The notes under the pieces were generated by a model. That model saw nothing but the letters and a program-made list of their open reading frames with translations, ran no database searches and was not told the DNA's origin. Shown one piece after another: positions 1-39,784 of a DNA stretch of 45,471 nucleotides. The stretch spans positions 1-45,471 of the forward strand of contig NZ_JAAHHG010000036.1 in assembly GCF_010692555.1 (NCBI RefSeq). Reading direction: 5' to 3'. The number at the start of each line of letters is the position of its first letter. Position 1 is the first letter of the stretch. The DNA comes from Okeania sp. SIO3B5 (GTDB lineage Bacteria; Cyanobacteriota; Cyanobacteriia; Cyanobacteriales; Microcoleaceae). Made by a program: the position numbers and the translations under genes.

Positions 1-834
1 TTTAGCACTTGCAGTATTATGGGACTCAAAACTGCACCAGTACAAGTTACTTGGCTTGGTTGGGATACTTCAGGAGTACCAACTATTGATTATTATATTG
101 CCGATCCTTATGTTTTGCCAGAAGATGCCCAGGAATATTATCAAGAAAAAATACTACGATTGCCACAAACTTATTTGGCTATAGATGGGTTTGAAGTTGG
201 TACACCAAGCATTATGCGTGCTGATTTGGAAATTGCTGATGATGCCGTGGTTTACTTTAGTACGCAAACTGGTGCTAAATATAATCCCCAAATAGCTAAA
301 TTACAAATGCAAATTTTGAGGGAAATTCCTAACAGTTACTTTTTAATTAAGAGTTTTGGCGAACAAGATTCTCTCAATCGCTTCTTTTTTGACATAGCTG
401 AAGAAGAAGGGGTAGCCAGAGAAAGAATAAAATTTATCCCCAGAGTCAAACTAGAGGAAACCCACCGCGCCAACCTGCAAATAGCAGATATTGTCTTAGA
501 TACTTATCCTTACAACGGAGCAACAACTACTTTAGAAACTTTGTGGATGGGTATTCCTATTGTCACAAAAGTAGGTGAACAATTTGCAGCACGCAACAGC
601 TACACCATGATGATGAATGCTGGCATCACCGAAGGTATTGCTTGGAGCGATAAAGAATATGTGGAGTGGGGGATTAGGTTAGGAAAAGACGAAGCATTGC
701 GACAACAAATATCTTGGAAGCTCAGAAAATCAAAGCAAACTGCTCCACTGTGGAATGCAAAACAGTTTACTCGTGAGATGGAGAAAGCTTATGAACAAAT
801 GTGGCAAATTTATACTGAAGGTTCTAGAGATTAA
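1..834 (+). CDS. SPINDLY/OGT-like GT41 glycosyltransferase, C-terminal part (5-prime truncated by window edge)
   Basis: The frame is open from base 1, so the gene starts outside the window. The first visible Met (base 19) lies inside the conserved catalytic fold and is not the true start. The 277 visible residues match the C-terminal half of bacterial GT41 O-linked GlcNAc transferase/SPINDLY proteins. Visible family features are the VTWLGW and TIDYYIADPYVLPE blocks, the sugar-nucleotide-binding DTYPYNGATTTLETLWMG block and the AARNSYTMMMNAGI block. Such proteins normally carry N-terminal TPRs, which would be off-window, and transfer a sugar to Ser/Thr of proteins or to glycans in the cytoplasm. 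The acceptor cannot be told from sequence. The gene converges on the minus-strand glycan genes with only 13 bases between the stop codons. A diverged copy of this fold is in the neighbouring gene at 848-3835. Confidence 0.9.
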   Translation, partial: FSTCSIMGLKTAPVQVTWLGWDTSGVPTIDYYIADPYVLPEDAQEYYQEKILRLPQTYLAIDGFEVGTPSIMRADLEIADDAVVYFSTQTGAKYNPQIAKLQMQILREIPNSYFLIKSFGEQDSLNRFFFDIAEEEGVARERIKFIPRVKLEETHRANLQIADIVLDTYPYNGATTTLETLWMGIPIVTKVGEQFAARNSYTMMMNAGITEGIAWSDKEYVEWGIRLGKDEALRQQISWKLRKSKQTAPLWNAKQFTREMEKAYEQMWQIYTEGSRD

Positions 835-847
835 CATTAAGATAATC

Positions 848-3835
848 CTAGAAAGAATAAGTATTTTCTACTTTTACTTGATTAACCTTTTCTTTGTTTT
901 CATTGTCCAATATAACTCTACCTTGGAGTAGTGGTTTAAGAGCTTCCCATTGCATTTTACTCAACTCTCCAATAATGGACATTTCAGGCCCCTCTTCAAC
1001 ATCTAGCTCCTCTTCCATTAGTAAATTCATAACTATACTAGACAAAGCAATATCTGCATCTTCATCAGAAATATTACTGTTATCAATCAGTAAAGTCATT
1101 TTAGTTTTATCTGGATGAGAAGCGATCGCCTTCAGTACCCTAGCAAAATCTTGGTACAGTAATTCTTCTGATTGACTCCAGTCTGGGAAGATAATTAAGT
1201 TAATATCTTTCAAGTTCAGATTAGCTTTAAGTTCATTTGTTAGATAATTTTGAAATGTTTTTTGGCATAAAATATCAAATTTATACGAATAGATACGACT
1301 ATCAAGGAATTGGGGATTATTCTGAATTTTCTGTCTAATATGCTCTTGGTACTGTTTCTGCAACTCTTGTTTAGTTCCAAGAGTAGTTGCCAAGTTAACA
1401 TAAGCTTCTTCATTGTTTGCAATTAATTCAGGTATTTGCAGCGATCTTAATAGTGATGCTCCTCTTCGAGAGCGAGAATACTCCCCTTCCATAACAACTA
1501 TAGGTAAACCCACCTCTAATGGATCTATTAGCGAACTCATACCAGAAAATGGGTAAGTATCTAGATAAATATTTGCTACTTTCAAACATTCTTTAATATC
1601 AGCACGATTTGGTAGAGGAGTAAGTAAGATTAATCTATTTTCACTGATTCCATGCTTACTTAATCTAGAAAAGAAGCGTTTCTTAAAAGTTTCTATTGGA
1701 TAAGTTGGAGCCCAGTTAGGATTAAACGGATATAGGACTAGAGTAGAGTTGGGCACATTAGCAAGTATTTTTGCCCATACAGCTTCAACTTCTGGAATAA
1801 TTTTATAAAAATTTGCTCCTGATATATAAACTACTGCATCCTCAGCAATACCTAGATTTTCTCTACTGATTTTTGTGGTGATTAAAAGTTGCTCTTCAGT
1901 ACCAAAATCAAAACATTGATCTATGCCGTCTAAAGTTAATAATTTCTCTGTATAATCTTTTTCCGAATTATTTTTTAATTCTGTGATATTTCCAGATATA
2001 TAGTAATCTATATGACGCATTCCGGTAGTTACAGGTGAGTTCATTCCTACCATTTGTAACCTGGCAAGACGATGCAATGCTAGTAAACTAATTACATTAG
2101 TTTGTGCAGTTACATTGGGAGAGATAAAAAGAATATCCAAGTCATCATTACGAATTGTTTTTACCTGGTTTTCTAAACTTTCTGGAAGTTGAACTACTGC
2201 ATCTGCATGACCTGAGCAATATCTTTCTAAACGATGACCACTTGTTTGTAGCGAATAAAGAATAATCTCAAATATTTCTCGATTCAAATACTTATATAAT
2301 GGCAAAGTTGCAAATGTTTCTGGATGAGGGTCAAAATTATTTGCAAGTATACCGAAACGAATTTTATTTCTAGCAGGTAGTCTACTAGGAAAATCATAGT
2401 CTATGTTATACCCTTTTAATTTTAAGGCAAATTCTAGTATTTCAGCACGCTTTTTATAGATATCTTTCAAATTATATTTACAAAAATATAGAAATAAATT
2501 TGCATTAGCAGCAAAGGAAATTGCTATATCTTGAGCATTTTTTGATTCTGGAGAACTGAAGATATAGGAATGAAGACAATTAATTGCCTTATTAATATGG
2601 TGATAGTAATTATCTACTTCCCCAATTTCCTGAAAACAAGATGGGGCATCAAATAAAAATTTAACATAGTTATTTAGTAGCCAATTAGGAATTTTTGATA
2701 GATCGTATTGTACTGGAAATTGGTGGGGGTATTTATACAACATAGCTACCAGTAGATACTGAATAGCTTGATTTTCATCAAATTCTCTAGACATATTTAA
2801 AATTAGGTCCTTGATAAAATTTTCTTCGGTATCGGTGAAACTTTCTTCTCGAACTCTAGTATTCAATATCCTGTTTATTGCATCTTGCTTAATTACACTG
2901 TTCAGTTCTTCTGAAGTAATATTTAACCATAAATTTGCTATTTGATGGCGAAGATAGGATAAATTTCTAGTAAAGACTGTTTTTTGGATAAACTCATCAA
3001 CTTTTTCTTCTCTAATGACAGTATTAGGGTGCTTTAAAGGAAATGAAATTTCCTCTACAGGCGTACTAGCTAATAAGCTATCTACATTAATTGTATTTGT
3101 AGAATCAACATTAAATCCAATATTAGAAACTAAGTTTTTTTCGGGAATAATTGTTAAACCATTTTGTAGCCAGCAAGCAAACTTCCAACGAAAAGCCCAT
3201 GAATTAATATGACCATCATAAGTAGCTTGAAAAGTTCTCGTCCATTGTTCTGCTACTTGAGGCTCTTTAAATAATTTCAACAGCCAGTTATTATCTCTAA
3301 GTTCTGGCCATTGCTTCATTTCAAAGTCAAAATACTGCCACGCACGTCTCCAAGTTGCCCATCCCCAACAGTCAATATAGCGAGAAAAATAGTAGCTATA
3401 ATTGTTTGGTTTCCAGCCAAATAAGAAGTTAGTACCAGTTATTACCATAACCTGTTGATTATAGCGATAGTAATCTAACAATTCTTCAGAAAATCGAAAA
3501 AATGTTGGGTCTGGAAGACAGTCATCTTCAAGAATTATAGCTTCTTCTACATTATTAAAAACCCAATCTAAGCCACTAGCAACCCGATGCTTCAAACCCA
3601 TGTTAGTATCTGAGTAATTTTTTAATACTTCACATTCCCAGTCTACTTTTTCAATTATTTGGCGAGTTGCTTGACACTTTTCTAATTCACCCGGTTTATC
3701 GGGACGTGGACCATCAGCAATAACTAATAATTTAGCAGGTTTAACTTGCCGAAGTGCTTCAAAAACTTTTTGAGTCGTATCCGGTCGTTTAAAGATAATT
3801 AGACAGACAGGGGTATTTAACTGGCGATCGCTCAT
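848..3835 (-). CDS. Fusion: GT-A glycosyltransferase + GT41-like domain + unnamed C-terminal domain
   Basis: This 995-residue protein has three parts. Residues 8-270 form a GT-A nucleotide-sugar transferase (GT2/GNT-I-like): an N-terminal IIFKRPD strand, an EDD metal-binding motif at 103-105 and the CWGWATWRRAW block near 156-166. Residues 290-480 are helical and unassigned. Residues 490-865 are a diverged GT41/SPINDLY-like fold, with ALHRLARLQ at 586-594 and DTYPFSG at 759-765, recognisably related to the convergent gene at 1-834. Residues 878-980 form a domain shared with the C-terminus of the 1425-residue protein at 10643-14920; I do not recognise it. The protein probably adds two sugars in succession, but donor and acceptor are unknown. 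It is the last gene of the minus-strand train and lies 76 bases after its upstream neighbour. The ATG follows AGATTTTCTT, a weak ribosome binding site. Confidence 0.85.
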   Translation of the reverse strand: MSDRQLNTPVCLIIFKRPDTTQKVFEALRQVKPAKLLVIADGPRPDKPGELEKCQATRQIIEKVDWECEVLKNYSDTNMGLKHRVASGLDWVFNNVEEAIILEDDCLPDPTFFRFSEELLDYYRYNQQVMVITGTNFLFGWKPNNYSYYFSRYIDCWGWATWRRAWQYFDFEMKQWPELRDNNWLLKLFKEPQVAEQWTRTFQATYDGHINSWAFRWKFACWLQNGLTIIPEKNLVSNIGFNVDSTNTINVDSLLASTPVEEISFPLKHPNTVIREEKVDEFIQKTVFTRNLSYLRHQIANLWLNITSEELNSVIKQDAINRILNTRVREESFTDTEENFIKDLILNMSREFDENQAIQYLLVAMLYKYPHQFPVQYDLSKIPNWLLNNYVKFLFDAPSCFQEIGEVDNYYHHINKAINCLHSYIFSSPESKNAQDIAISFAANANLFLYFCKYNLKDIYKKRAEILEFALKLKGYNIDYDFPSRLPARNKIRFGILANNFDPHPETFATLPLYKYLNREIFEIILYSLQTSGHRLERYCSGHADAVVQLPESLENQVKTIRNDDLDILFISPNVTAQTNVISLLALHRLARLQMVGMNSPVTTGMRHIDYYISGNITELKNNSEKDYTEKLLTLDGIDQCFDFGTEEQLLITTKISRENLGIAEDAVVYISGANFYKIIPEVEAVWAKILANVPNSTLVLYPFNPNWAPTYPIETFKKRFFSRLSKHGISENRLILLTPLPNRADIKECLKVANIYLDTYPFSGMSSLIDPLEVGLPIVVMEGEYSRSRRGASLLRSLQIPELIANNEEAYVNLATTLGTKQELQKQYQEHIRQKIQNNPQFLDSRIYSYKFDILCQKTFQNYLTNELKANLNLKDINLIIFPDWSQSEELLYQDFARVLKAIASHPDKTKMTLLIDNSNISDEDADIALSSIVMNLLMEEELDVEEGPEMSIIGELSKMQWEALKPLLQGRVILDNENKEKVNQVKVENTYSF

Positions 3836-3911
3836 AAGAAAATCTCTTCGTATGGTAATGAAATAGCTAGGTACAGAAAACGTGAAATTAAAAACTTACA
3901 ATACCTAATTG

Positions 3912-5630
3912 CTAATCGTCATTTTTGATTGCATCTAGTATGATTGAAGTGTAATTTAACTTTCCGTTTTTATTTCTTTCATCAAACCTTTTAGACCTAT
4001 ATATTTTTCCTTCATTTTCATTCCAACTTGTAAAATTAAATTTACCTTTTTCATCAAAATACTCCAGAAGATTTACACGAAAACCAACTTTTTCAAAGAC
4101 TTCTCTCACAGAAGCATAATTATAAAGAATTTTGTGTTCTTCGCTTCCAAAGCCAGTTCCTCCTGGTTTCACCATGTTAATATACTCGTAGCTGGGGTGG
4201 AATCCATCTGGAACTGCTACTCTCAAATACCCACCAGGCTTTAGGTATTTGTAGCAAATTTTAGCTGCTCGAAGGCCATCATCTCTAGTTAGATGTTCCC
4301 AAAGGTGTTCTGCCAGAATAGCATCTATTGGTGAGTTAGAAAAATATTTTTCCCAGTCCTCTTGATTCAATAAGTTAAGAGTATAAATATCTGTACTTAG
4401 CCAACCTGGTTGGTAAGTACTTACCGAACCAAGCATCACTCGTAATGGTATCCTTGTTGAAACCAGTTTTTGTAAAAGATTGGTAACATGTTTGCGTACT
4501 TCACTCCAATCTGGCTGAAGTGCCAAAGCTCTCTGATAATCAACTATTGCTTTTTCAAGCTTCTTTTCTTGCTCTTGTGCAATAGCTTTCTGATAATAAA
4601 CTTTTGCCTTTTCAAGCTTCTTTTTTTGCTCTAAAGTATTGCCAAAATTTTTGTCGGTATTAGAACTCTTAAGTTGAGCAGTAATAACTTGGTTTTGTTT
4701 TTCTGAATTTGCTGGAATGGCTTTTCCTCGAATATTACTTTGTAGAGACACTTCTGGTAAAAAAAGTGATACTTGCTCAGAAACTTCTCTCAAAGTTTTC
4801 AAATAACAACCATATATATTTCGCCAAATTATCTGGTCACTAAATCGTTTCATTGGCAAGTTAGGATTGAGAGAAAATTTCTCAAAATCTTTTTTATAAT
4901 GTTTGAAAGCATGAAAGTGGAAAAATATCAAGGGTTGTTCATCAACCCATACTTGATTTCCATCAGCATAGATTAGATAGTTATTAGTGTTCCAATGTCC
5001 CACATTAACCCCCTTATGTTGCAAAACAACTACACCCGAAAAACGATTAGGCCAATCATCTAAATATTTTTGGTCTGCAAACTTTCCGTTTTCCGGGCGA
5101 TCGTAACACCATTCGATGCACTTTTCACGCCACCAACGTAAACAAGCAAACCCGTTTTCATCGCGCCTGAAGGATAACCAACCGACGTTATAAATACCGA
5201 ATTTGACTAATTCTAAGCGATCGCTAGAAAAACGATGCTCTATGATAGCTATAGAGTCATCGGCTATTTCCTCATAAATTGGGGTTATATCTGAGAAGAA
5301 AAACAAGTCGGCATCCAGATAAGTAATTAAATCTACTTCTGGATAGTTATTGAGAACGAATAAAGGTAAAGATGGACTACAGGTAAAATAGTATTCAATT
5401 AACCTGCGGTTTTGTTTTGCCCCAAGCAGCGCTTCATCTCCTTGCTCAAATTCGCTCAGGGAAATCAGATTAATATCTGGCAAATCTAGCTGTTTGAGAG
5501 TATCATAGCAGGTTTGACTCAGGCATAAAACCCAAAGTTTAAATTCTGGGGAATGCTGCTTTAACGAGCGATAAAGAGCCAACCCCAGAGGTAAATAATT
5601 ATGGTCGAAGTAGGTACAAAAATAGTGCAT
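3912..5630 (-). CDS. Fusion: GT8-like glycosyltransferase + short TPR/coiled linker + SAM methyltransferase-like domain
   Basis: The protein has 572 residues. Residues 1-285 resemble a putative retaining GT-A glycosyltransferase; YLDADLF (104-110) supplies the DxD metal/nucleotide-sugar motif, and GVNVGHWN and FHFHAF come later. Residues 335-372 hold one or two TPR-like, Lys/Glu-rich helices (QKAI, YQRALALQP). Residues 395-570 look like a small predicted SAM-dependent methyltransferase of the type-11/COG4627 kind: AEHLWEHL at 440-447 and LKPGGYLRVAVPD at 463-475. A classical GxGxG motif I is not obvious, so methyl transfer by this domain is uncertain. The ATG overlaps the TAA of the upstream aminotransferase by one base (TAATG), which implies translational coupling and a shared product pathway. 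Confidence 0.82.
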   Translation of the reverse strand: MHYFCTYFDHNYLPLGLALYRSLKQHSPEFKLWVLCLSQTCYDTLKQLDLPDINLISLSEFEQGDEALLGAKQNRRLIEYYFTCSPSLPLFVLNNYPEVDLITYLDADLFFFSDITPIYEEIADDSIAIIEHRFSSDRLELVKFGIYNVGWLSFRRDENGFACLRWWREKCIEWCYDRPENGKFADQKYLDDWPNRFSGVVVLQHKGVNVGHWNTNNYLIYADGNQVWVDEQPLIFFHFHAFKHYKKDFEKFSLNPNLPMKRFSDQIIWRNIYGCYLKTLREVSEQVSLFLPEVSLQSNIRGKAIPANSEKQNQVITAQLKSSNTDKNFGNTLEQKKKLEKAKVYYQKAIAQEQEKKLEKAIVDYQRALALQPDWSEVRKHVTNLLQKLVSTRIPLRVMLGSVSTYQPGWLSTDIYTLNLLNQEDWEKYFSNSPIDAILAEHLWEHLTRDDGLRAAKICYKYLKPGGYLRVAVPDGFHPSYEYINMVKPGGTGFGSEEHKILYNYASVREVFEKVGFRVNLLEYFDEKGKFNFTSWNENEGKIYRSKRFDERNKNGKLNYTSIILDAIKNDD

Positions 5631-6790
5631 TATTTATCTCCTCCTTTTTGTTGATACCATAAAGCGATCGCTTCTCCAATTCGCCGAACTCCATCATCGC
5701 CCAATTGGGGATACATTGGCAAGCTAAATATTTCTTTGCCGATTTTTTCTGTTGTTTCCAGTCCGCCACTGCCTATGGGAAGGCGATCGCGATAAGCTGG
5801 TTGTAAGTGAACTGGTGAAGGATAGTGAATCGCAGTACCAATAGCCTTTTCTTTCAAAAACCCTCTGATATCATCTCTATTTTCTCCCCGCACCACATAT
5901 TGATGATAAACATGGTCTATATTTCCTTGCAGTTTTGGCAACTTCCAAGGTATATTAGCAAGCAAACCATCGTATTTTTCTGCAATATGTTGGCGTTGCT
6001 GGTTGTCTCCATCAAGATATTGCAGTTTTACCCGCAAAATAGCAGCTTGCATCGGGTCTAAACGAGTATTCATTCCTGGTACATCGCTAATAAATCGCTG
6101 TCGCCAACCATATTGACGCAAGGTCAACACTTTTTCTGCCAAAACCTCATCGCTAGTCGTCACGGCACCACCATCACCTAACGCCCCCAGATTCTTCGTT
6201 GGGTAGAAGCTAAATGCAGCCAAGTGCCCCCAACAGCCAGTTTTGCGACCCTCAATAGTAGCACCGTGGGATTGAGCGCAATCTTCAATGACATATAACT
6301 GGTAGCGATCGGCAATATCCATAATAGCTGTCATATCCGCAGGATGCCCGTACAAATGAACCGGAATAATTGCCTTTAACCGTCCTGGTGGAGAAGTAGA
6401 ATTTAAAATCTCTACCACTGTCTCCTCTAGACAATTCACATCCATCGTGAAAGTTATTGGATCGATATCCACCAACACAGGCGTCACTCCCACAAGCTCG
6501 ATCGCTGCCACAGTGGCAACCGCCGTATGGGATACCGTAATAACCAAATCTCCCGCGCCGATACCGCAAGCACGCAGAGCAATTTCTAAAGCATCAGTAC
6601 CATTGGCAACGCCAACAGCATGACTGACGCCGATGTAGGAAGCAAATTCTTTTTCGAATGCCTCGACTTCGCTACCCAAAATATACCATCCACTGTCTAG
6701 TACTCTGGCAACGGCAGCATCAATTTCTGCCTTATGGGCAAGATAACCAACTTTAGGATTTGTTTGTAGAATTGATTCTTGGTGTTCCAT
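5630..6790 (-). CDS. DegT/DnrJ/EryC1/StrS-family PLP sugar aminotransferase
   Basis: At 386 residues this is full length for the family. It has the N-terminal GWYILG block (34-39), the ANGTDAL PLP-phosphate block (62-68), IEDCAQSHGA with the PLP ring-binding Asp170, and FSFYPTKNLGALGDGG with Lys199 as the Schiff-base lysine. These enzymes transfer an amino group from glutamate to a keto-sugar nucleotide, giving an amino-deoxysugar donor. The exact substrate (3-keto or 4-keto dTDP/UDP sugar) cannot be fixed. The SDR enzyme encoded 3 bases upstream probably acts earlier in the same pathway, and the glycosyltransferase fusion overlapping the stop by one base probably uses the product. The start codon is ATG, with GGAGG-like sequence absent. 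Confidence 0.93.
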   Translation of the reverse strand: MEHQESILQTNPKVGYLAHKAEIDAAVARVLDSGWYILGSEVEAFEKEFASYIGVSHAVGVANGTDALEIALRACGIGAGDLVITVSHTAVATVAAIELVGVTPVLVDIDPITFTMDVNCLEETVVEILNSTSPPGRLKAIIPVHLYGHPADMTAIMDIADRYQLYVIEDCAQSHGATIEGRKTGCWGHLAAFSFYPTKNLGALGDGGAVTTSDEVLAEKVLTLRQYGWRQRFISDVPGMNTRLDPMQAAILRVKLQYLDGDNQQRQHIAEKYDGLLANIPWKLPKLQGNIDHVYHQYVVRGENRDDIRGFLKEKAIGTAIHYPSPVHLQPAYRDRLPIGSGGLETTEKIGKEIFSLPMYPQLGDDGVRRIGEAIALWYQQKGGDK

Positions 6791-6793
6791 AAT

Positions 6794-7780
6794 TTACAAA
6801 TAATGCTCCAGATGTTGGCGATAAAATTCAATACTCTCAGTCAACCCTTCTTGTAAAGATACTTTAGGTTCCCACCCCAATACTGACTTTATCAAACTGT
6901 AGTCGGAATAGTAATCTCCAATATCAATGCGCTTGCGTTCTTCTGGAAAGGAACGAATATTAAATTTTCCGCCCCCGTTAGCCTTAATTAGCACTTCCGC
7001 TAATTCCTTCAAACTAATGACGGCATCTCCACCCAGATTAAATACTTTACCGTTAGCTTCGGGACTAACTGCTGCCAGTAACAAAGCGTCTATAGCATCC
7101 TCCACATAAGTAAAATCTCTAAGCTGTTCGCCTCCCCAAACTTCAAAAGGTTTACCTTCAACTACTAACTTAATCCATATACCCAAAAATGTTTGACGAG
7201 CATCTTTAACTCGCATTCTTGGACCGTAGGTATTAGTTAAGCGCAGAGCAGAAGCATGAATCCCATAGACGTTGTTATAGAGGATATGATACCATTCCCC
7301 CGCCATTTTGTTAATGCCGTTGACATCTACCGGACGCACCAAGTGCTTTTCATCTACGGGGAGATAATCTGGTTTGCCGTAAATCTGGCGAGTGCTGGCA
7401 AATACTACTTTTATATCGGGGTTGTATTTGCGACAAGCTTCAAGGATGGATAGTTGCGATCGGCAGTTAATTTCTAAATCCGTGTAGGGGTCGTGCATCG
7501 AGTCGAGATGACTGGTTTGCCCCGCTAAATTAAACAAGTAATTCTGCCCCTGGACTAAATAACGCATACTGTACTCATCTCGTACGTCGGAGATGTTGAC
7601 CTTTACTCGTTCTTTAATCTCAGCAATGTTAAATAAGTTGCCACCGTATTCGGGAATTAAGCTATCCACTAGCAATACTTCTGCACCTAGTTTAACTAAA
7701 CGCTGGGCGAGGTTGCTGCCGATAAATCCAAGTCCGCCAGTAATTAAAACTTTACTATCTTTAAAATTAGTCTCAATCAT
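6794..7780 (-). CDS. NAD-dependent epimerase/dehydratase (extended SDR) with Asn in place of catalytic Tyr
   Basis: This 328-residue extended SDR has a clean Rossmann motif (TGGLGFIG, 14-21), an acidic NAD-ribose residue at Asp39 after the second strand, the ASTRQIYG strand with Ser129 and Thr130, and a RLTNTYGP sugar-nucleotide block. It is probably a nucleotide-sugar 4,6-dehydratase, epimerase or decarboxylase. The normal YxxxK catalytic pair reads NGINK: Asn154 stands where Tyr is expected and Lys158 is kept. The gene lies between the frameshifted methyltransferase (ATGA overlap, 4 bases) and the sugar aminotransferase (3-base gap), consistent with one operon. Because of the Tyr substitution, chemistry should not be assumed from the family name. 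Confidence 0.88.
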   Translation of the reverse strand: MIETNFKDSKVLITGGLGFIGSNLAQRLVKLGAEVLLVDSLIPEYGGNLFNIAEIKERVKVNISDVRDEYSMRYLVQGQNYLFNLAGQTSHLDSMHDPYTDLEINCRSQLSILEACRKYNPDIKVVFASTRQIYGKPDYLPVDEKHLVRPVDVNGINKMAGEWYHILYNNVYGIHASALRLTNTYGPRMRVKDARQTFLGIWIKLVVEGKPFEVWGGEQLRDFTYVEDAIDALLLAAVSPEANGKVFNLGGDAVISLKELAEVLIKANGGGKFNIRSFPEERKRIDIGDYYSDYSLIKSVLGWEPKVSLQEGLTESIEFYRQHLEHYL

Positions 7781-8884
7781 TTTTTCTTTCCTGTTTCATG
7801 GCGGAATAAAAAACCTGCTACTTCAAATGGTTCCGGTGCTTTATGAGGAAAAATCATCCAATCTATTAAAAATTCTCGCACCAATTTCATTCCCAAGGAT
7901 TTAGTGTAGTTTAGCAGTTCACTGGAATTAAGAACCCAGCATACACATTCTGCATCAATTCCAGATATTCTTTGGATGACCACATACGAGTTTGTTTGGC
8001 GAACTACATAAATTCTAGTAAGATAAAGGTATGAATTACAGACATCATTATAATTTCTGCAAGATTGACTGCCAATTTTGAGAGTATTGTAAGGAACCGC
8101 TGACCAACACTAGATCGTAATTTCCTTCAAAGCACTTATTTTCGTCTTCATACCAACTGACCTCTGGTAAGAACTCTCGACCTGCTTGACAAACTAGAGG
8201 TAATTCCTTAATGTGATAATCAAATTGTACTTCTGGAAACAAAGCTTTACTGACGAGGTAATAATCACCACAACTACCTCCCCAGTCTAGAATAGATAGT
8301 TTTTCTTTTTTGCGACTAGCTAAACCTAAAATATAGGCATAAGTCATAAATATATTTTTTTCTGCATAATTTGGAGCTGTGGGACTAAATGTTTCTCCTG
8401 GAGAACCTAATGGTTTAGTTCCCTTGTATTTTGCTAAAAAAGAATCCCAATTTTTTCGTAGTTGATCTATGCGATCTTGAGTATCGTAACCTTTGTTGCG
8501 ATCGTCAGTAGTTTGCCAAGCATTACTAAGGTATTCCCAAGTTGTTTTTGTCTTTGAAATATCAGGTTTTAAATCTACCGCTTTTTGCCAATAAGCCTTA
8601 GCTTCATCAAACAGAGCTTGATGGCTAAAAACATGAGCCATCTTCCAATAAGCACTGGCCGAATCTAGTTGGAGAGCGATCGCTTTCTTCAAATTCTTTT
8701 GAGCTCTATCGAAGTCTCCTTGGCTACTTAGAATAAAGCCAAGGTTATTGTATGCTTGCCCCAAGTGAGGTTTTAATTTGATGACTTTTTCATAGCATTC
8801 TATGGCCTTTTCCATCATATTTTGCTCATAAAAATAATTTGCCAGATTAAAATATTCCTGTGCCAAACTTTCTGTGTCTATCAT
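7777..8884 (-). pseudogene. TPR + sugar-methyltransferase-like gene (TIGR04325 type) split by a one-base frameshift
   Basis: The first open part (8884 to 8048) encodes 278 residues: TPRs at 7-105, then a methyltransferase with LDWGGSCGDYY (199-209) and a DLVLVSGSLQYS block. It stops at TAA 8050-8048 just after QKL. Dropping one base at about 8051 restores a frame that reads NDVCNSYLYLTR and runs to the TGA at 7777. It matches residue for residue the C-terminus of the neighbouring protein at 8925-10598, including SLGMxLVREFL and GFLFR. So this is one gene of about 368 codons with a single extra base. The distal frame still ends in an ATGA overlap with the SDR start, which argues for recent damage, a sequencing error or slippage rather than old decay. 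A short ORF beginning at 7983 is just the tail of this gene. Confidence 0.85.
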
Positions 8885-8924: not shown

Positions 8925-10598
8925 TTACCCCTGTCCCTTCTCTGGGCGAAACAAAAATCCTCTCCCTTCTGCAGTTTCGGGTGATCCTGATACTGGAAAC
9001 CTCTCTGCAACTAAAAATTCTCTGACCAACTCCATCCCCAAACTACCCATATAATTCAAAAGCTCTTTTCGGTTGAGAAACCAACCCAAATATTCAGTAC
9101 CATAGCCATATTTATACGCTCTTTGCAACACTACAAAAGATTCTGCCTGATGAACTATTGGCAACCGAGTTATATACAAATAAGAATCAGTAGCAGCAGC
9201 TAATTTTTTTGCCACTTCTCGCCAATTTTCTGAGTATTGCAACGACGAACTTGCCACAACTAAATCGTAATTTTTTTTAAAGCAATCTTCGTCATTCTCA
9301 TAAAAATTTGCCTCTGGTAGCAGTTCTCTACCAGCTTCGCATAAAACTGGTACTTCCTTACAATGGTAGTCAATTTCTACATCTGGCAACAGGGATTTAC
9401 TGATGAGATAATACTCCCCTAAGCCACCACCCCAGTCGAGCAAAGAAATCCGGTCTTTTGTTCTTGCAGTCTTGGTTAAAACATAACCATAAGCCATTTT
9501 TGTATTATGCTGTCCGTAATCGTTAGCTAAAGGTTTAGTATTTTGAATTGATTCAACTAAACTAGACCATTGTGCTTTCCTAACATCCAGGATAGCTTCA
9601 ACATTCCAGCCTTTAATTAGAGCATCTTGTTTTGACCAACCTTCGCTAACATATTCCCACTCTGGAATTAAATCCGAACTAGCATATTTATCGATCGCTT
9701 CTCGGGCGAAATCTTTTTCTATTTCATCTAGTGGCGCATCTTTGACACCACTTCCAAGTAACTTCTGATGTATTTTACCCACTTCTGCTTGGTAAAAAGT
9801 TTCCAAGTGGTTTGTAGGCAAACCCAAAATTAAATCTGCTATTTGCTGACGAGCTTTTTTCAAGTCATTAATTCCCGAGCCGCTATCTTGAGATTTTGAA
9901 GCTTCTTTAAGTAAACTAGATAATTCAATTTCTATAGATTCAAGTTCAATTAGCTTATTAGCGGTTTCATTCCGAGATTGACGTTTTGGTAAAGGATAAA
10001 TTACCCCTGGTGTTGCTGTAAATTCTCCTTTTGTTAGAGTCACAAAAACAGACCTAATTTCTTGCGGTTCTTGAGTTTTAATCTCTAAAATACCTGCACT
10101 AGCTGGAATATATAACCTCCAGTCGCATTCTAAAATTGTAAAGCCCGCCTGTTTGCTTAAATATTTCAAACACTCAGGGGAATAGCGCCAATAGTCGCGG
10201 GGAGATGGATGATAAGGGAACAGAAAAACCGTGGAAATAATTAATAGGCTATTGGGCTTCATTATTTGATAGAATGCCTGAAAAACCTCTAATGGATTTT
10301 CGATATGTTCAATGACATTCAGACAAACAGCCGTCCCCAATTGATTTGTGTATTTTGTAGGCAACTCTTCAATTCCCGGATCGCCATTTTCAGGATTCAA
10401 AATTACATAATTTTTATCAATATGGTCGAACGGTCTTTGTGCTAGTCCAACGTATCTTCCATACTGATCGCCCGTTTTGATAGTTAAGTTGTAATCAGCA
10501 ACTGTGGGTTTTGCAAGTCCTCCTAAATCGAAAAAAGGCTCTCTAAGTCCGTACTTCTGTACCTGTTCTGTTACCAGTTTAATATCATCCCAAAACAT
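8925..10598 (-). CDS. Double methyltransferase: type-11-like N-terminal + TIGR04325-like C-terminal domain
   Basis: The protein has 557 residues. Residues 1-195 form a class I SAM methyltransferase with FDLGG (23-27), VCLNVIEHIENP (91-102) and a hydrophobic strand after MKPN. Residues 210-280 form a helical linker rich in Glu and Leu. Residues 300-557 form a second methyltransferase with LLDWGGGLGEYY (386-397), KEVPVLCEAGRELLPE (414-429) and VASSSLQYSENW (448-459), a layout typical of the putative sugar methyltransferases grouped as TIGR04325. It is a paralogue of the frameshifted gene 40 bases downstream, which has TPRs instead of the first methyltransferase. The gene starts with MFWDDIKLV, a string that also occurs inside the upstream 1425-residue protein. 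It probably methylates sugars made or transferred by this locus. Confidence 0.85.
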   Translation of the reverse strand: MFWDDIKLVTEQVQKYGLREPFFDLGGLAKPTVADYNLTIKTGDQYGRYVGLAQRPFDHIDKNYVILNPENGDPGIEELPTKYTNQLGTAVCLNVIEHIENPLEVFQAFYQIMKPNSLLIISTVFLFPYHPSPRDYWRYSPECLKYLSKQAGFTILECDWRLYIPASAGILEIKTQEPQEIRSVFVTLTKGEFTATPGVIYPLPKRQSRNETANKLIELESIEIELSSLLKEASKSQDSGSGINDLKKARQQIADLILGLPTNHLETFYQAEVGKIHQKLLGSGVKDAPLDEIEKDFAREAIDKYASSDLIPEWEYVSEGWSKQDALIKGWNVEAILDVRKAQWSSLVESIQNTKPLANDYGQHNTKMAYGYVLTKTARTKDRISLLDWGGGLGEYYLISKSLLPDVEIDYHCKEVPVLCEAGRELLPEANFYENDEDCFKKNYDLVVASSSLQYSENWREVAKKLAAATDSYLYITRLPIVHQAESFVVLQRAYKYGYGTEYLGWFLNRKELLNYMGSLGMELVREFLVAERFPVSGSPETAEGRGFLFRPEKGQG

Positions 10599-10642: not shown

Positions 10643-13600
10643 CTAAACTTTGACTTCCTCCTCATTAATTTTTAATACAGGTAGTTTTGAACCCCTCATA
10701 TTAGCTTGCTCTTGATTTTCATTTTCGAGATAAATTTTATACTTGACATCAGCCAATAAATTTGACCATTGTCTTTCACTTAGCCCTCCAATTAGAGAAA
10801 TTTCTGGTCCTTCATTTACATCTAAATCTTCTTCCATAAGCAAATTTATAACCACACCGGATAAAATTAAGTCTGCATTTTCTTCAGATATATTGCTGGT
10901 ATCTATTAGCAACGCTATCTGATTTTTGTCGGGATGCGTTAATATTCTCTGAATGACTTGCGACAGTTCTGGAGCAATATCTGATTCCGATTTATTCCAA
11001 TCTGGAAACAGGATTAAATTAATTTTTCGTAGATTAAAAAGCAATTTTTCATTGGGCGATATCTGCTGGGCATTACTTATACCTGAAGTATTGTCTTTAA
11101 GGTTAGCAACAAGTTCCATTCTTTTTTTAAGAATATTTTCTATTGGTTTTAGTGTTACATAAGCATAATAAGCTAGTAGGTTATTTTGACCAACATAATG
11201 ATTTACAGATTGAACATATTGAGATTTTATAACTTCCCCTAATAGTTCATCATCTAAGGGTTGAACTGGTATTCCGCACATTGCTTGATAATCAATATCA
11301 TCTTCAATACTAACTTTAAGATTGGTTAACTCTAAATCTAAACCATTTTTAAAAAAGAACTCTCTTTGCCAAATTCTATTCTGACGACGTGAAGAGGGAA
11401 GTGTTAGCATTGATAAAGCAATTTCAGGTTCGAGAAAAGGAGACCAAGGTTTAAAACCAAAGTGACTTGGTACTGTCATTAGATATGAAACCAAAATCAT
11501 TTTAAACCTAATTAAAAAGATGATCTGATAAAACTCATGTTGCAATTTGTCTGAATTTTCTAACCAAAACTTTTCACGAATGTCAGATGATGAAATGAAA
11601 CAAGAATGACTAGAATCTACACATACTCTATGAGTTAAGCCCATATTATACAACTCTTCTGGAGAGGATATGTTTTTTAATCCTATATTTCCAGCCCAAG
11701 CATCTCCAACGATTCCGCTCGCCAATGGGTTTTCTCCTACTACTTGCGATAGTAGTTTATTATAAAACTCAATATGATACATTCCATGAGCGTGAGTAGA
11801 AATGCCAAATATTTTATCCCACTCATCAAAATATAAATGCTGATTTCCTAAATCAACTTTTTCCCATTTTATATTTAAAATTTCAGATAACTTTTTAGCA
11901 TATACTGCTTCAATACCGTAACTAAAAGCTCTAATCCTAGACTTATCTTCTATGAAATAATTTAATATCCTAGAATCATAACCACCACTGGTGGGAATAA
12001 TAATTTCTCCTTCTACTGATCTCTCCCAATTACGAATGGCTGTATGTAATAGATGTAAAACATCATCTTCGTGAGAAGTTTTGCCTATCCATTTATCTAC
12101 AACATCCTCTAAATGTTCAATTTCAATACAACCATCATTGTCAACAGTTAGTCGTGATGAGTGTCTCAAAAACTTAACATCTTTGATAGGTGTTTGTTCT
12201 AGAACAGAATAACCAAAATCAAGATAGTTGTTTAGTCCTTCTGGATGAAATTCAAAATTAGTAAAATCTATTACATCATTAATATTATAGCTAACTTTTC
12301 CATTTTTTTCATTATAAAAAACTGGACGAGAGGCAAGCCAATCAGTTTCAAATACTTTCTTTTCATTTTCTGTAACTGAATGATTCAATTCAGAGACTAT
12401 CATAGTAGTCTTTGAATTATTTTGCTTGTTTTTATCTAAATCTTGAGAATAGATAAAGTAAGCACCATTAGCATCAGCATTTACAATCTCTATCTTAAAA
12501 TCTCTTACTATTCTCTTTAAAGCTATTTCTACAGATTTCCAGTTAGTATCATCAAAAAAAACTATCCCACCAGGTTTTAGGCATTGATAAGCAAAGCTAA
12601 AATCTTGATAGACTGCTTTTGCTGTATGATTTGCATCAATGTATATAAAGTCAAATTTAACATTTTGATTGCATAATTCTTGAAGAGCTTCAATTGTAGT
12701 TTGCCTTCTGGGAATAATCTTTTCCCTAAAATGTTCTGTATTTTGTAAAAAAGTTTCATACAACCTGTCTACTTTTAGTTCTTCCATCCTCTGGGGATTT
12801 TTGAATAAAGAAATAGTTTCTTCTGCTTCTTTTTCCCATTCATTTACATCCCAAACATCAACGCAAATTAATTTGGAGTTTACCCCTGTTAAAATATTTT
12901 CTACTAACCATAAAGCACTTCGACCTTTCCAAGAACCGAGTTCTAAGAAAAGTAGGTTAGGTTCTCCTACATAATTGCTTAATAGTTGCTCAAATGATTT
13001 TCCATGAGTAAACCAATTTTCATCTTCACGCCCTAGATCTATCTTCTGAGTTTCTTTGTTACTCTCTTTAAACAAATATGAATCTGGGTTATTAATTTCT
13101 AATTCCCCTATTATTCTAGATAATGCTTTTTCAACAATATTTATGTGTGCATCGCAACGCAAATAATGCAAAAGAAGAGCTGCATCCTGTTTATTTGCTA
13201 TTCCCAATCTGGGATACCAAAGAGGATATAACTCAGTAGCAATATTTTCATATATTGTTTCATAATCAGACGATTGAATCAATCTGCACAATCGTTGATA
13301 TTCTTCTTCAAATTCTGAATTTTTGCTAACATCTATGCAATTATTTTCATCGAAAGTTAAAGGAATTACTTCTAGATTTTCTGTTTCTATATCCACACTA
13401 ACTGCAATAGACCAATTTGTATTAGGATACTCCTGAAATGAATCATCTATAAAAGCAAAATTCCCTAGAGAGTAAAAAATGTATTTATCATTATGGACTT
13501 CATGTCCTTGAACACTATGGGGATGATTGCCAATAATCAAATCTGCCCCATATTCTACCCATAACTTGTAGCGATCGCGCAAGTAAGGCGGTGGTATGGG

Positions 13601-14920
13601 AATCACTTCTGTTCCCCCATGCCCTACCACCACGACAAACTTTCCACTTTCTTTTCCCTCTTTGATATAATGATAAATTTCTAAAGCTCTATCTACCGTA
13701 GCAATTCCACCTTTGTTTGCTTGTGCTGCCCCAAATTCATTTTCAGCTACAGCAATAATTCGACAATTACCAATATCCAATGGTGCGAAAGCTTCCTGCA
13801 AATTCATACCAGCACCAACTGTAGCTACTTGGTGACTTTGACATATTTCCCTAGTTTTTTGCAAGCCCTCAAGGCCAAAATCCATGCTATGATTATTAGC
13901 CAAAATAGCTACATTAAAACATTCCGCTAATGGTGTAAAAAACTGTGGGTTTAAAAGCAAATGAGGCCCTGCTTTAAATAAAGGCTTTTGAACCTCGGAA
14001 AACGTACCTTCTAAATTAAAAACCCCAACCTCATGCTGTTTGCATAATCCTTTCAATAATTCTCCAAAACTAAAAGGAGACTTAGGAACAGTATCTCCTA
14101 CAAAAAGAATTTTTTTTACCAATGTAGAACTGTTCAATTTCAAGTTAGGCTCATTGACCAGTTTAATATCGTCCCAAAACATTTCTATACTTTCCCTTTG
14201 ACTAAAAGTTTTTGATGGAAAAGCAATATAATTTTCATAAAAAGAATTTGAATCATTTACTAATTTCCCAAAAGAACCATCACTATTTATCCTATGACAT
14301 TCATAACCATTTTCAATTAAGATATTAAAGGTATCTTTAGCTTGGCAGTTTAAGCCTTCTAGCATTTTTTGAGATATTTCAAACTGAAGAAATGAAATAG
14401 CTTTTCTTTTTAAAAGAGAAATAGCTCCTTCCAGTACATAGCTTTCTGCTCCTTCAACATCTATTTTTAAATAATCTATATTTTTGATATTGTTGGCTTC
14501 ACAAAAAGTATCCAACCTCACTGCTTCAACTATTTCCGTATTTACAATAGGAACATAATTGGCAGGAGAATTTGGATCGTTCATTTGCGGCCTACCAATA
14601 CTATTCCATGATGAATATTCATCAGGAAATTCATTAAACTCTAATAGCTTATTTTCTGAAAATATTGCTTTTTGAAATGGGAAAACATTACTGCACTGAT
14701 GCTCTTTTAGTCGCTTCAATAACTTTTTAAACGTGCTGGAAGTAGGCTCGAACGAATATACTTTTCCAGATTGACCCACAAGCTGACTAAATAAAATAGA
14801 ATAGTGACCGATATTAGCACCTATATCAAAAACTGTCATTCCCTGTTTGACAGTTGTCTGGACCAACATTTGTTCTTTTTTCTCGTGAAACGGAAAAATC
14901 TCTACTGACAAATCATTCAT
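10643..14920 (-). CDS. 1425-residue fusion: FkbM methyltransferase + CapA-like + class I methyltransferase + asparagine-synthase-like + unnamed C-terminal domain
   Basis: Five modules are visible. Residues 1-235 form an FkbM-type methyltransferase (FDIGANIGHYS 31-41, SFEPT, LKIDVEGAE 151-159). Residues 268-525 form a CapA/PgsA-like metallophosphatase-fold domain (FVGDTVP 273-279, NLEGTFS, ANNHSMDFG 341-349, GNHPHSVQG 464-472, FYSLGNF 482-488). Residues 635-828 form a class I methyltransferase (LELGSWKGRSA 659-669, FIYIDANH 758-765, LKPGGIVFFDD). Residues 855-1265 form an asparagine-synthase-like domain with PP-loop SGGYDS (978-983), preceded by what looks like only the second half of an Ntn glutaminase, with no N-terminal Cys. 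Residues 1298-1405 form the domain shared with the protein at 848-3835. It is probably a cytoplasmic multi-step sugar or polymer tailoring enzyme; the product is unknown. Confidence 0.85.
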   Translation of the reverse strand: MNDLSVEIFPFHEKKEQMLVQTTVKQGMTVFDIGANIGHYSILFSQLVGQSGKVYSFEPTSSTFKKLLKRLKEHQCSNVFPFQKAIFSENKLLEFNEFPDEYSSWNSIGRPQMNDPNSPANYVPIVNTEIVEAVRLDTFCEANNIKNIDYLKIDVEGAESYVLEGAISLLKRKAISFLQFEISQKMLEGLNCQAKDTFNILIENGYECHRINSDGSFGKLVNDSNSFYENYIAFPSKTFSQRESIEMFWDDIKLVNEPNLKLNSSTLVKKILFVGDTVPKSPFSFGELLKGLCKQHEVGVFNLEGTFSEVQKPLFKAGPHLLLNPQFFTPLAECFNVAILANNHSMDFGLEGLQKTREICQSHQVATVGAGMNLQEAFAPLDIGNCRIIAVAENEFGAAQANKGGIATVDRALEIYHYIKEGKESGKFVVVVGHGGTEVIPIPPPYLRDRYKLWVEYGADLIIGNHPHSVQGHEVHNDKYIFYSLGNFAFIDDSFQEYPNTNWSIAVSVDIETENLEVIPLTFDENNCIDVSKNSEFEEEYQRLCRLIQSSDYETIYENIATELYPLWYPRLGIANKQDAALLLHYLRCDAHINIVEKALSRIIGELEINNPDSYLFKESNKETQKIDLGREDENWFTHGKSFEQLLSNYVGEPNLLFLELGSWKGRSALWLVENILTGVNSKLICVDVWDVNEWEKEAEETISLFKNPQRMEELKVDRLYETFLQNTEHFREKIIPRRQTTIEALQELCNQNVKFDFIYIDANHTAKAVYQDFSFAYQCLKPGGIVFFDDTNWKSVEIALKRIVRDFKIEIVNADANGAYFIYSQDLDKNKQNNSKTTMIVSELNHSVTENEKKVFETDWLASRPVFYNEKNGKVSYNINDVIDFTNFEFHPEGLNNYLDFGYSVLEQTPIKDVKFLRHSSRLTVDNDGCIEIEHLEDVVDKWIGKTSHEDDVLHLLHTAIRNWERSVEGEIIIPTSGGYDSRILNYFIEDKSRIRAFSYGIEAVYAKKLSEILNIKWEKVDLGNQHLYFDEWDKIFGISTHAHGMYHIEFYNKLLSQVVGENPLASGIVGDAWAGNIGLKNISSPEELYNMGLTHRVCVDSSHSCFISSSDIREKFWLENSDKLQHEFYQIIFLIRFKMILVSYLMTVPSHFGFKPWSPFLEPEIALSMLTLPSSRRQNRIWQREFFFKNGLDLELTNLKVSIEDDIDYQAMCGIPVQPLDDELLGEVIKSQYVQSVNHYVGQNNLLAYYAYVTLKPIENILKKRMELVANLKDNTSGISNAQQISPNEKLLFNLRKINLILFPDWNKSESDIAPELSQVIQRILTHPDKNQIALLIDTSNISEENADLILSGVVINLLMEEDLDVNEGPEISLIGGLSERQWSNLLADVKYKIYLENENQEQANMRGSKLPVLKINEEEVKV

Positions 14921-34743: not shown

Positions 34744-37341
34744 CTAAATTACATTTTGCAGCACAAAAAGCAGACGTTGAATTTGTTTTTCCCAAGTCAA
34801 ATCTTTCATAAAGCTAACAGCAGTTTTGCTCCGAAGTTGAGCATCTTCTCGGTCAAAATAAACTTTTTCTAACATTTCTACTACTTCTTCAACATCAGAT
34901 TCTCCCCAACCATCTATACCTGGAAACTGTGGGGTAGGTTTCACAGGATTTTGATTATTTAAGGCATAACAATGAGAGTTATTAATAATATCTAAATGCC
35001 CAGTATTAGCAGAAATAATTGTTGGGATACCACAGGCAAGACTTTCCATTGCAACAAGATTTGTACCGCCTTCGCAGCGATTTGTAAATACAGCCACATC
35101 AGCTTCTCGTAATATTTGTCCTACCATATAATTAGGAATCGGACCAACATCAATAACTGCATTGCTAGGAATGTCATTTTCTAGTAACCATTGAGTAATT
35201 TGTAAACGTTTATTTTGACTAATTTTCGGTAATCCTACAACATTTCCAGTTTGTTCAATTCCTACCATAAATTGAGGCCAGAAGTTATGCCAAGCTGTAA
35301 TTAATAGTGCTTCTGGATAACGTTTTTGGAATATTTTAAAAGCTGCTATGACAATATCTTGACCTTTACGATATTCTAGTTTGCCTCCAGAAAAAATAAC
35401 GAAGCGATCGCCAAAAATATTAGATTTAGGTGCGGGATGAAAAATTGTTTGGTCAATGCCTTGTAAAACTTTTTGTACGGGTTTGATACCATTACTTTCT
35501 AGAATTTTGGTATTCCAGGTAGATCCGGTAATAATCAAATCATAAGCTTTGGAGCGATTAATTTGTTCTGAGGTAAATTGAGTATTTTCTGAGAAAATAA
35601 TTCCAATATTTTTGGTTCCTACAATATTATTACTTACAGAGAAATTACTACCTAAAGCTTGTAAGATAGGTAAGTTGAAGTTAATATTTTTGCCTTGGTG
35701 ATTTTTGAGTTGATTTTGCAAATTTTTCTGAGCATCAAAAGCTGGATTTAGTAAAGCTTGATGTAGGGGATTTAACATTCCAGGTTGAATAGAAGGAGGT
35801 GTTAATAATAGGGGTTGATATTCTGGGTTTTTAAGTAGTTGGAGAGTAAGATTAATGCCATAAATACCCCAACCAGTTATCGGATTTAATGGCCAGCCAA
35901 TAGCAATTATTTTCATTATTTCAAAAGTAGAAGTTTTAGTTTGTAGATTTTTTTGAGAAGTTATGAAGGTAGATAAAGTTGTGTTTTTATGATGTTTGCC
36001 AGATTTATTTTGTGCTAAAGCTTTTGTAATTGATTCTTCTGACAATTTAATACCCTTTTTTTCAGAAGTTTTATTGGTTGGAGAATTATTATCTAGCAAA
36101 TTTTCCAAGTTTTCTTTAACTTGTTTAGATACACTATCCCAATCTCCTATTTTTGACTGTCTAAATAATCTCATTGTCGGATACCAAGGACTATATTTCC
36201 GGTCTGTTAACCAATGCCAGTCAGAATCAAAATTTAACATTACCCAAACAGGTTTTCCTAACGCTCCTGCTAAGTAAGCAATAACTGTATCTATTGTAAT
36301 TACTAAATCTAATTGTTTTATTGCTGCTGCTGTATCAGTTAGATCATTAAAAGATGAACCATTATTATGAATTTTAGTTTGAGAGTTAAGCCATTCTAAA
36401 TCTGTTTGAAAGACTTCTTTTTGTAAAATGTAAAAGTTGACTGTATCTATATTGATAATTTCTTGTAAATATTCAACTGGGCAAGAGCGTACTTGACTCG
36501 TTCCACTGATACTACTTGTTTTTGTTTGCCAACATATTCCAACTTTGAGATTTTTTTCTGGAGCAAATGGAATGGGAAAGTCGATTGATTTTGGAACAGA
36601 TAAATAAGGAATTTCAGCAGGTATAGTTTCTGGGGTAGTTTGGAAAATTCGAGGTAGACTCATCAATGGAATTTGCAGGTCAAAATCTGGCAATTTTTCA
36701 CCTATAACAAATAATTCGTCTATTTCTGAAACCGTGGTAAATAATAATTTTAATCCAGCTTTATTACATTCAACAATGACAAGTCCTCCTAATTTTTTAA
36801 CTAGAGGAATATAGCGGATAAATTGAATAGAATCTCCTAAACCTTGTTCGGTATAAACTAATAAAGTTTTTCCTAAAAAATTTGACCCATCCCACAAAGA
36901 TTGAGAGAAATTACGCTTAATAAAATGCTCATGTTTCCTGCGCCATTCATATTCGGAAAATCCGGCAATAAAATCTCCCTGTTTAAGCAAAACAGCAGCT
37001 AAACCAAAATGATAATTTACATGATTTTTATCTAATTTAATAGCTTGTTCATAATATTTTTGAGATTCCGCAAGTTTTCCTAAATTTAAAAAGATAGAGC
37101 CTAGGGAACGATATGCTTCAATATGATCTGGATTTACTTCAAGAACTTTTTGACGATATTCAATTACTAACTCAATTTGACCTTGTTTTTCTAAAATATT
37201 CCCTAAATTCCACCATGCTTCGGTATAACTGGGTTTGATTTTAATTGCCTGTTGATAATAGATACTTGCCTTTGATAAATCTCCCTTTTGTTCCCACGCA
37301 AAGCCTAAATTGAGATTTGTATATGAGTTGTGAGGATTAAT
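34744..37341 (-). pseudogene. 3-prime fragment of broken TPR-glycosyltransferase gene: TPRs + GT9-like + GT4 domain
   Basis: The frame is open from just after the TAA at 37344-37342. There is no ATG or GTG until deep inside the domains; the TTG at 36990 falls within a TPR helix. Directly after the stop the frame continues with INPHNSYTNLNLG and several TPRs. A GT9-like domain (LLVYTEQGLGDSIQFIRY, GICWQT, DLVITIDTVIAYLAGALGKPVW, RLFRQSKIGDW) follows, then a GT4-type glycosyltransferase from Met 35916 (KIIAIGWPLNP, FSGGKLEYRKGQDIVI, FTNRCEGGTNLVAMESLACG). The C-terminal GT4 module of 390 residues could still be made from the ATG at 35916, though no ribosome binding site is seen. Otherwise this is the tail of the gene split upstream. 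Confidence 0.75.
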
Positions 37342-38397: not shown

Positions 38398-38398
38398 T

Positions 38399-39775: not shown

Positions 39776-39784
39776 ATTAAATTT

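Follow-up and report, generated by a model that had tools for sequence, protein, structure and literature searches.

The question raised by a 45,471-nucleotide stretch of the cyanobacterium Okeania sp. SIO3B5 (contig NZ_JAAHHG010000036.1, positions 1 to 45,471; hereafter the window) is why two large proteins, assembled from quite different enzymes, should end in the same domain. The first, P0001 (995 amino acids; 848..3835, minus strand), consists of an N-terminal region, a catalytic region of glycosyltransferase (GT) family GT41 and the shared domain. The second, P0002 (1425 amino acids; 10643..14920, minus strand), consists of FkbM methyltransferase, PGA_cap and Methyltransf_24 domains assigned with Pfam, a PP-loop-like region assigned from a motif only, and the shared domain. 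The answer developed here, to which we give an even chance of being right, is that this domain is non-catalytic, belongs to enzymes that build up the glycan of pilin and recognises the acceptor they share.

Copy 1 of the domain occupies 851..1231 (core 896-1204) at the C terminus of P0001, and copy 2 occupies 10646..11050 (core 10697-11038) at the C terminus of P0002, both on the minus strand. Residues 873-985 of P0001 align with residues 1295-1407 of P0002 at 52% identity over 113 residues. A two-sequence BLASTP of the copies gives 57/108 identities free of gaps (E 4e-41), and their local alignment scores 322, whereas 1000 shuffles have a mean of 36, a standard deviation of 6.8 and a maximum of 71. 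An earlier note on this DNA had placed a common C-terminal domain at residues 878-980 of P0001 and 1298-1405 of P0002; the coordinates and motifs are as it claimed and the domain is real, its alignable part being slightly longer than was supposed. The parents were also said to be otherwise unrelated, and once the domain is removed the top remaining match between them indeed has an E of 0.92. Among the labels that the note attached to the parents, GT41 (PF13844, E 3.7e-33), FkbM, PGA_cap/CapA and Methyltransf_24 are all recovered by Pfam, and a model of P0001 residues 335-995 matches OGT and SPINDLY structures in the PDB (Foldseek, top E 8e-24). The labels “GT-A” for P0001 and “AsnB” for P0002 found no supporting Pfam family at E up to 0.1, and the regions in question (residues 1-267 and 901-1290, respectively) no PDB sequence match at that threshold; an SGGxDS-type motif is visible in P0002, which we take to mark a PP-loop. 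No further copies were found in the same genome at E up to 0.001, so that its two copies both lie in the window.

The domain is real and portable, with a length of about 115-125 residues, and it falls outside the described families that were searched. Neither P0001 nor P0002 has a Pfam match over the domain at E up to 0.1, the same stretch of both copies has no NCBIfam match, and PHROGs returned nothing under E 0.02. When 83 aligned members were compared with Pfam, no consistent family emerged: the top single E was 0.0037, for a family matched by two members, the family most often matched was hit by three, and none of the 21 families listed at E up to 1 is a GT family. The family profile had no match among PDB sequences at E up to 10. 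With copy 1 as the query, 3jqh (CLEC4M, E 4.5e-4, residues 7-37 only) and 2kr5 (E 0.064) were returned; both are regarded as chance matches, and both disappeared with the family profile. Comparison with local profiles of the FkbM, CapA, Methyltransf_24, PP-loop, aminotransferase, epimerase and other families, which are shallow (1 to 157 sequences each), revealed no similarity. Likewise, among the papers listed on the glycosylation of pilins in cyanobacteria, on the surroundings of ogt and pilA and on fusions of glycosyltransferase domains, no title or opening of an abstract describes the domain; an earlier mention of its neighbouring enzymes is possible.

Within the cyanobacteria the domain is widespread. 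A profile-based survey of Cyanobacteriota genomes located it in 45 of 59 near genomes, the source genome included, and in 64 of 386 genomes across the phylum; a repeat search of nearly the same phylum set brought no additional members. One of the 64 (G337) is doubtful, as its match (E 7e-4, locus L122) extends over half of the domain, falls in a protein that also matches Metallophos and 5_nucleotid_C, and is taken to be chance. A scan of contigs by exact short peptides confirmed 151 relatives, of which the best 78 were listed as loci; these are all cyanobacterial and include Okeania, Microcoleus, Trichodesmium, Arthrospira, Nostoc (among them Nostoc punctiforme NIES-2108, with a copy in L091), Fischerella and other genera. 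These 78 loci lean to close relatives because they were found by similarity to copy 1; distant members are present in other families of the class. Collections of plasmids and phages held no match to the domain at E up to 1e-5.

The proteins that carry the domain are unlike one another, and its place in them is regular. Among stop-to-stop open reading frames (ORFs) of the window and loci L032-L109 and L120-L135, 143 bear the domain. Distinct sequences number 137, and 122 of these are complete, although the latter range from 69 to 2,341 residues and include some fragments. Of the 122, 104 have the domain no more than 45 residues from the C terminus, nine close to the N terminus and nine internally (L122, one of the last nine, being doubtful). 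In the residues adjoining it (up to 420, scanned in 67 representatives of less than 70% identity drawn from 132 with L122 included), Pfam finds Glycos_transf_1 in 23, Glyco_trans_1_2 in 22 and GT41 in 15, with methyltransferases, GT2, FkbM, TylF and GT61 in fewer. By eight local family models, the nearest upstream enzyme of the 137 distinct parents is GT4 in 50, GT41 in 29, another family in five and none of the eight in 53. The profile search thus returned the family that the earlier note had foreseen, one that is unnamed, cyanobacterial, mainly C-terminal on glycosyltransferases and methyltransferases, and without a Pfam match. The distance from enzyme to domain is nearly constant, at 32 residues after GT41 in 33/35 cases (32/34 without contigs represented twice) and 26-28 residues after GT4 in 39/50 (39/49 likewise). 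In a few GT41 proteins the order is reversed: the domain (L133 15411-17612; L109 7529-9616), or part of it (L090 6094-7740), lies near the N terminus, where Ogt has its tetratricopeptide repeats (TPRs).

A domain appended to such different enzymes could be a docking module whose copies bind each other, or a common scaffold, and so gather the enzymes into one complex, as the earlier note had suggested. In keeping with this, multiple copies are usually close together, all lying within 20 kb in 19 of the 26 relatives that have two or more, and in 13 of the 122 complete parents a single chain holds at least two copies. Yet docking between unlike carriers is weakened by the survey, in which a single copy, rather than two carriers per genome, was seen in 38 of the 64 domain-bearing genomes (copy numbers being lower bounds, as no more than 11 candidates were scored in each genome). 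Binding between unlike carriers is therefore not a general role, though copies may form homodimers or bind a scaffold that itself lacks the domain. The phylogeny of the copies also speaks against docking. In a tree of 145 copies, built on 121 columns only and with 69 of its 139 inner branches open, 48 post-GT4 and 34 post-GT41 copies (82 rows) are separated by three changes, and all six neighbour labels require 34 changes against 83.9 for shuffles. On these sequences, post-GT4 and post-GT41 copies form largely separate lineages. Copy 1 sits among the post-GT41 copies, and copy 2 forms a long branch of unsure placement. What stands of the earlier note is thus the unnamed, C-terminal cyanobacterial family on unlike enzymes; its self-docking is weakened by the single-copy genomes, the separate lineages and the predicted junction described below, and we consider docking rather unlikely.

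An AlphaFold2 model of the domain (m05fb23c5e8d1, from an 83-row alignment) has a predicted local distance difference test score (pLDDT) of 83 and a predicted template modelling score (pTM) of 0.79, with elements in the order b1-a1-b2-a2-b3-a3-(b4)-a4, so that a Rossmann-like half fold is a well supported prediction. The top match to this model in the PDB is Asp1 (5vaf; Foldseek E 2.7e-3, template modelling score 0.57 on the query), the fold of which we take to be GT-B. Asp1 is a separate protein of about 510 residues, however, whereas the domain is a half of about 120 residues fused to enzymes and has no PDB sequence match. Trehalose-6-phosphate synthases follow frequently in the list, with UDP-glycosyltransferase (UGT) and G-protein-coupled receptor (GPCR) entries among others. 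Nine of the GPCR rows are presumably fusions to a lobe of Pyrococcus glycogen synthase, although only the title of 8cxo says PGS. Counting these fusions, GT-B lobes make up 31 of the top 50 rows, eight rows being chains of 5l3k. Given the predicted strand-helix order and the many Foldseek matches that it shares with the C-lobe of GT-B enzymes (GT4, GT20, GT5), derivation of the domain from such a lobe is plausible; it differs from that lobe in that it shows no kinship of sequence profiles, stands as a single lobe and has no recognised catalytic motif. As the models contain one lobe of about 115-125 residues, not the two lobes and cleft of a catalytic GT-B enzyme, we infer that the domain is non-catalytic.

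Such a fold invites the explanation that the domain is a degenerate lobe for binding nucleotide sugars, a structural or regulatory extension that would stabilise its enzyme or sense a nucleotide sugar and play no part in acceptor binding. Rossmann-type folds bind ligands near the region of strand 1, and it is in or just after strand 1 that the strongest conserved stretch of the domain lies: N13 and W20 are invariant in 83/83 aligned copies, and F17, P18, D19 and E24 are conserved at about 94-95% by weight. The near-constant spacing after GT4 and GT41 is also as expected of a structural extension. A stabiliser specific to GT-B enzymes would not explain, however, why the domain is also attached to FkbM, TylF, GT2 and GT61 enzymes, to unannotated proteins and, N-terminally, to GT41 proteins, and this explanation seems unlikely to us. 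The model of the GT41 part together with the domain (27 rows; pLDDT 83.7, pTM 0.84) places the last GT41 helix (513-539 in model numbering) so that it runs into the first strand of the domain (544-548) with no disordered linker, a junction that would explain the constant GT41-to-domain spacing. A continuous helix, in place of a disordered tether, is also not what a docking module would lead one to predict.

At the other extreme, the domain might have no specific function, and be a mobile C-terminal tail spread by recombination in a variable surface-glycan locus. Its neighbours are modularly shuffled, and truncated copies occur (L047, L061 and L090), as such a tail would have it; the two residues invariant in every aligned copy, the near-constant spacing and the neighbour-linked lineages are all contrary to it, and make it highly improbable.

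The genomic surroundings of the domain connect it with type IV pili. Genes of at least 150 amino acids around domain-bearing genes were clustered by single linkage in the 78 loci listed as the best of the 151 relatives, and a group typified by TPR-GT41 proteins (a label that rests on Pfam-scanned counterparts in the source genome and L132) was present in 65 of them. A gene with a type IV prepilin motif was found in 46/78, and 46 of 48 prepilin ORFs are downstream of and convergent with the domain-bearing gene at a distance of 2.4-5.4 kb. A single pilin from locus L035 was then used as a query in the same 59 near genomes. In 29 of the 44 relatives that carry the domain (the source genome of the window apart), a domain copy is at most 10 kb from the best pilin match of the whole genome; with the genome of the query (G001) left out the count is 28/43, and the chance expectation under random placement is 0.18 of 44. 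Other pilins among the matches listed are within 10 kb of the domain in only 2/81 cases, both of them at most 2 kb from the best pilin. When 11 stretches were read gene by gene, ten had the pilin gene immediately next to a GT41 gene and nine had it facing genes with the domain; the exceptions are C443, a contig of the source genome that ends before any domain gene, and L130, which stops 2.7 kb short of the best pilin. A methyltransferase-like gene (by the local FkbM model) precedes the pilin in 5/11. Together, these surroundings make it very probable that the domain belongs to a pilin-glycosylation locus.

The window itself appears to continue such a locus. It begins at a contig edge within a TPR-GT41 (Ogt-like) gene, the 3' part of which (1..834, plus strand; PF13844 E 4.9e-38 for 19-834) faces P0001 convergently. 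The best match of the genome to the pilin query is on C443 (7,396 bases), which carries a methyltransferase gene (Methyltransf_31-type by Pfam), a pilin gene (2610-3146, with N_methyl and Pilin_GH matches) and two TPR-GT41 genes, the first at 3254-5503 and the second, from 5832, present as its 5' part. The pilin gene is followed directly by the first TPR-GT41 gene, the arrangement that marks a pilA-ogt locus. Positions 3-41 of the window are identical to C443 7256-7294, over 39 bases and in the same reading frame, and the last 102 bases of C443 diverge. By this overlap, the 5' part of window gene 1-834 is probably at the end of C443, behind the pilin gene and the first ogt. The likely order of the whole is then methyltransferase, pilA, ogt and second ogt, followed by the convergent run from P0001 to P0002. 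The diverging bases (C443, also locus L140, 7295-7396) are GC-rich by eye, and the contig end looks chimeric.

Several observations weigh against a non-catalytic, acceptor-recognising domain of pilin-glycan enzymes. In the loci, no prepilin gene occurs in the flanks of 32/78, and the best pilin could not be placed near the domain in 15/44 genomes; in 12 of these it is on another contig, in G041 and G047 it shares the contig of the domain at a long distance, and that of G011 is not among the matches listed. The pilin samples are also not blind, because the query was taken from a locus with the domain, and the presence of domain or pilin decided the choice of the 11 stretches. Co-variation of domain and pilin over 43 loci gave a partial r of 0.29 (103/2000 permutations as high) and a value of 0.38 (0/2000), from permutations that ignore phylogeny. 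By Pfam scan, some enzymes of the window locus lack the shared domain. As to the fold, the Foldseek search of the PDB returned no match with E below 0.001; the 19 of the top 50 rows that are not GT-B lobes include histidinol dehydrogenase and LarE, some of them rank fourth and fifth, and their scores are nearly equal to those of the lobes. Finally, alignment of the domain with the shallow local C-lobe profiles of GT4 and GT41 (hhalign) reached a probability of at most 0.3%, which indicates no kinship.

Despite these reservations, holding of an acceptor is favoured over docking because of the single copies in 38/64 genomes, the predicted junction and the N-terminal copies on GT41 enzymes. As the enzymes belong to the pilA-ogt locus, binding of a shared acceptor would account for where the domain occurs no less well than docking does. 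Under this mechanism, Ogt would place the first sugar on cytosolic PilA, and the domain-bearing enzymes would then extend the PilA glycan. The domain would hold the common acceptor, whether pilin or its first sugars, at the active site of each enzyme, and unlike enzymes could thereby act in turn on the same protein. The sugars themselves could come from the aminotransferase and epimerase encoded in the same gene run. Taken as the mechanism of the domain, acceptor recognition falls a little short of an even call. A bolder and rather doubtful version holds that one GT lobe became a portable module for holding the acceptor, copies of which were added to many enzymes of cytosolic pilin-glycan assembly. 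At its extreme, whole chains would be modular glycan synthases that hand one pilin between their active sites, much as modular polyketide synthases do with a carrier protein. The candidate for such a chain is an FkbM-GT4-domain-GT41-domain protein of 2,341 residues in L125; long FkbM-GT4-GT4-domain-GT41-domain chains are also present in L074 and L081.

The system as a whole is of a known kind, cytosolic Ogt-type glycosylation of an appendage, and appears novel in its shared accessory domain and in the modular way in which that domain is used. Ogt, the gene of which is beside pilA in many cyanobacteria, acts in the glycosylation of PilA, and pilin glycosylation affects pilus assembly (PMC12288463). 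The pilin of Synechocystis is reported to be O-glycosylated (PMC7076178), and ogtA is given among the motility-related genes of Nostoc (PMC6495340). C443 and the loci of relatives resemble this pilA-ogt (OgtA) locus in that TPR-GT41 is directly beside pilin (PMC12288463). They differ from it in their convergent, domain-bearing multi-enzyme proteins, of which the portions of PMC12288463 drawn on here make no mention, naming Ogt and further enzymes only in general terms. In Caulobacter, the cytosolic flagellin O-glycosyltransferase FlmG draws its specificity from a flagellin-binding domain (PMC7591256). The likeness lies in a modular build, in which a glycosyltransferase has a distinct domain for binding its substrate (PMC7591256), binding by the shared domain being putative. 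In FlmG, the binding domain is N-terminal and serves one enzyme and flagellin, whereas the shared domain is mostly C-terminal and accompanies many enzyme types. Asp1, the best structural match of the domain model, belongs to the accessory Sec system, of which Asp1-3 are described as aiding the export of a glycosylated adhesin (PMC5578698).

The domain bears on the questions of which enzymes build the sugars of cyanobacterial pili and how they find pilin (PMC12288463, PMC7076178). Used as a marker of further enzymes, it picks out candidate genes for the pilin glycan across cyanobacterial genomes, and it offers a testable handle on how unlike enzymes could become specific for one protein. Its frequent place near the gene of the main pilus protein suggests that it helps these enzymes to build the sugar coat of a pilus used for moving and sticking. 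Since pilin glycosylation affects pilus assembly, it probably also bears on motility and biofilms.

The remaining genes of the run from P0001 to P0002 are all on the minus strand, and 5/6 of the intergenic gaps are below 80 bases. The first, 76 bases from P0001, encodes a 572-amino acid protein (3912..5630) with TPRs and weak methyltransferase and GT8 matches. It is followed by a DegT/DnrJ/EryC1 sugar aminotransferase (5630..6790; PF01041 E 1.5e-114), an NAD-dependent nucleotide-sugar epimerase/dehydratase (6794..7780; PF01370 E 1.7e-46, PF16363 E 5e-44), a TPR protein (8048..8884; PF00515 E 2.9e-20) and a Methyltransf_23 methyltransferase (8925..10598; PF13489 E 6.7e-14). A second minus-strand run in the window (34744-42781), in which the search of the source genome found no shared domain, encodes a GT4-like protein and two TPR proteins, one of them with a weak GT9 match.

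A number of carriers in other loci are unusual in themselves. Four proteins of about 530-550 residues (L059 6393-8036, L051 3387-5036, L095 4813-6399 and L060 7592-9193) have no Pfam match at E up to 0.001. The whole L059 protein has neither a Pfam nor an NCBIfam match and its 415-residue N-terminal part no PDB sequence match; the four may form a new family of pilin-locus enzymes. In L124 (4048-6285) and L125 (5952-12974), part-copies of the domain are split and in tandem, with unrelated in-frame sequence between the parts, suggesting a repeat inserted into the domain. Lastly, L061 (3556-6628) has a partial and a full copy on overlapping ORFs of 891 and 145 amino acids, which a frameshift, a duplication or an error of assembly could have produced.

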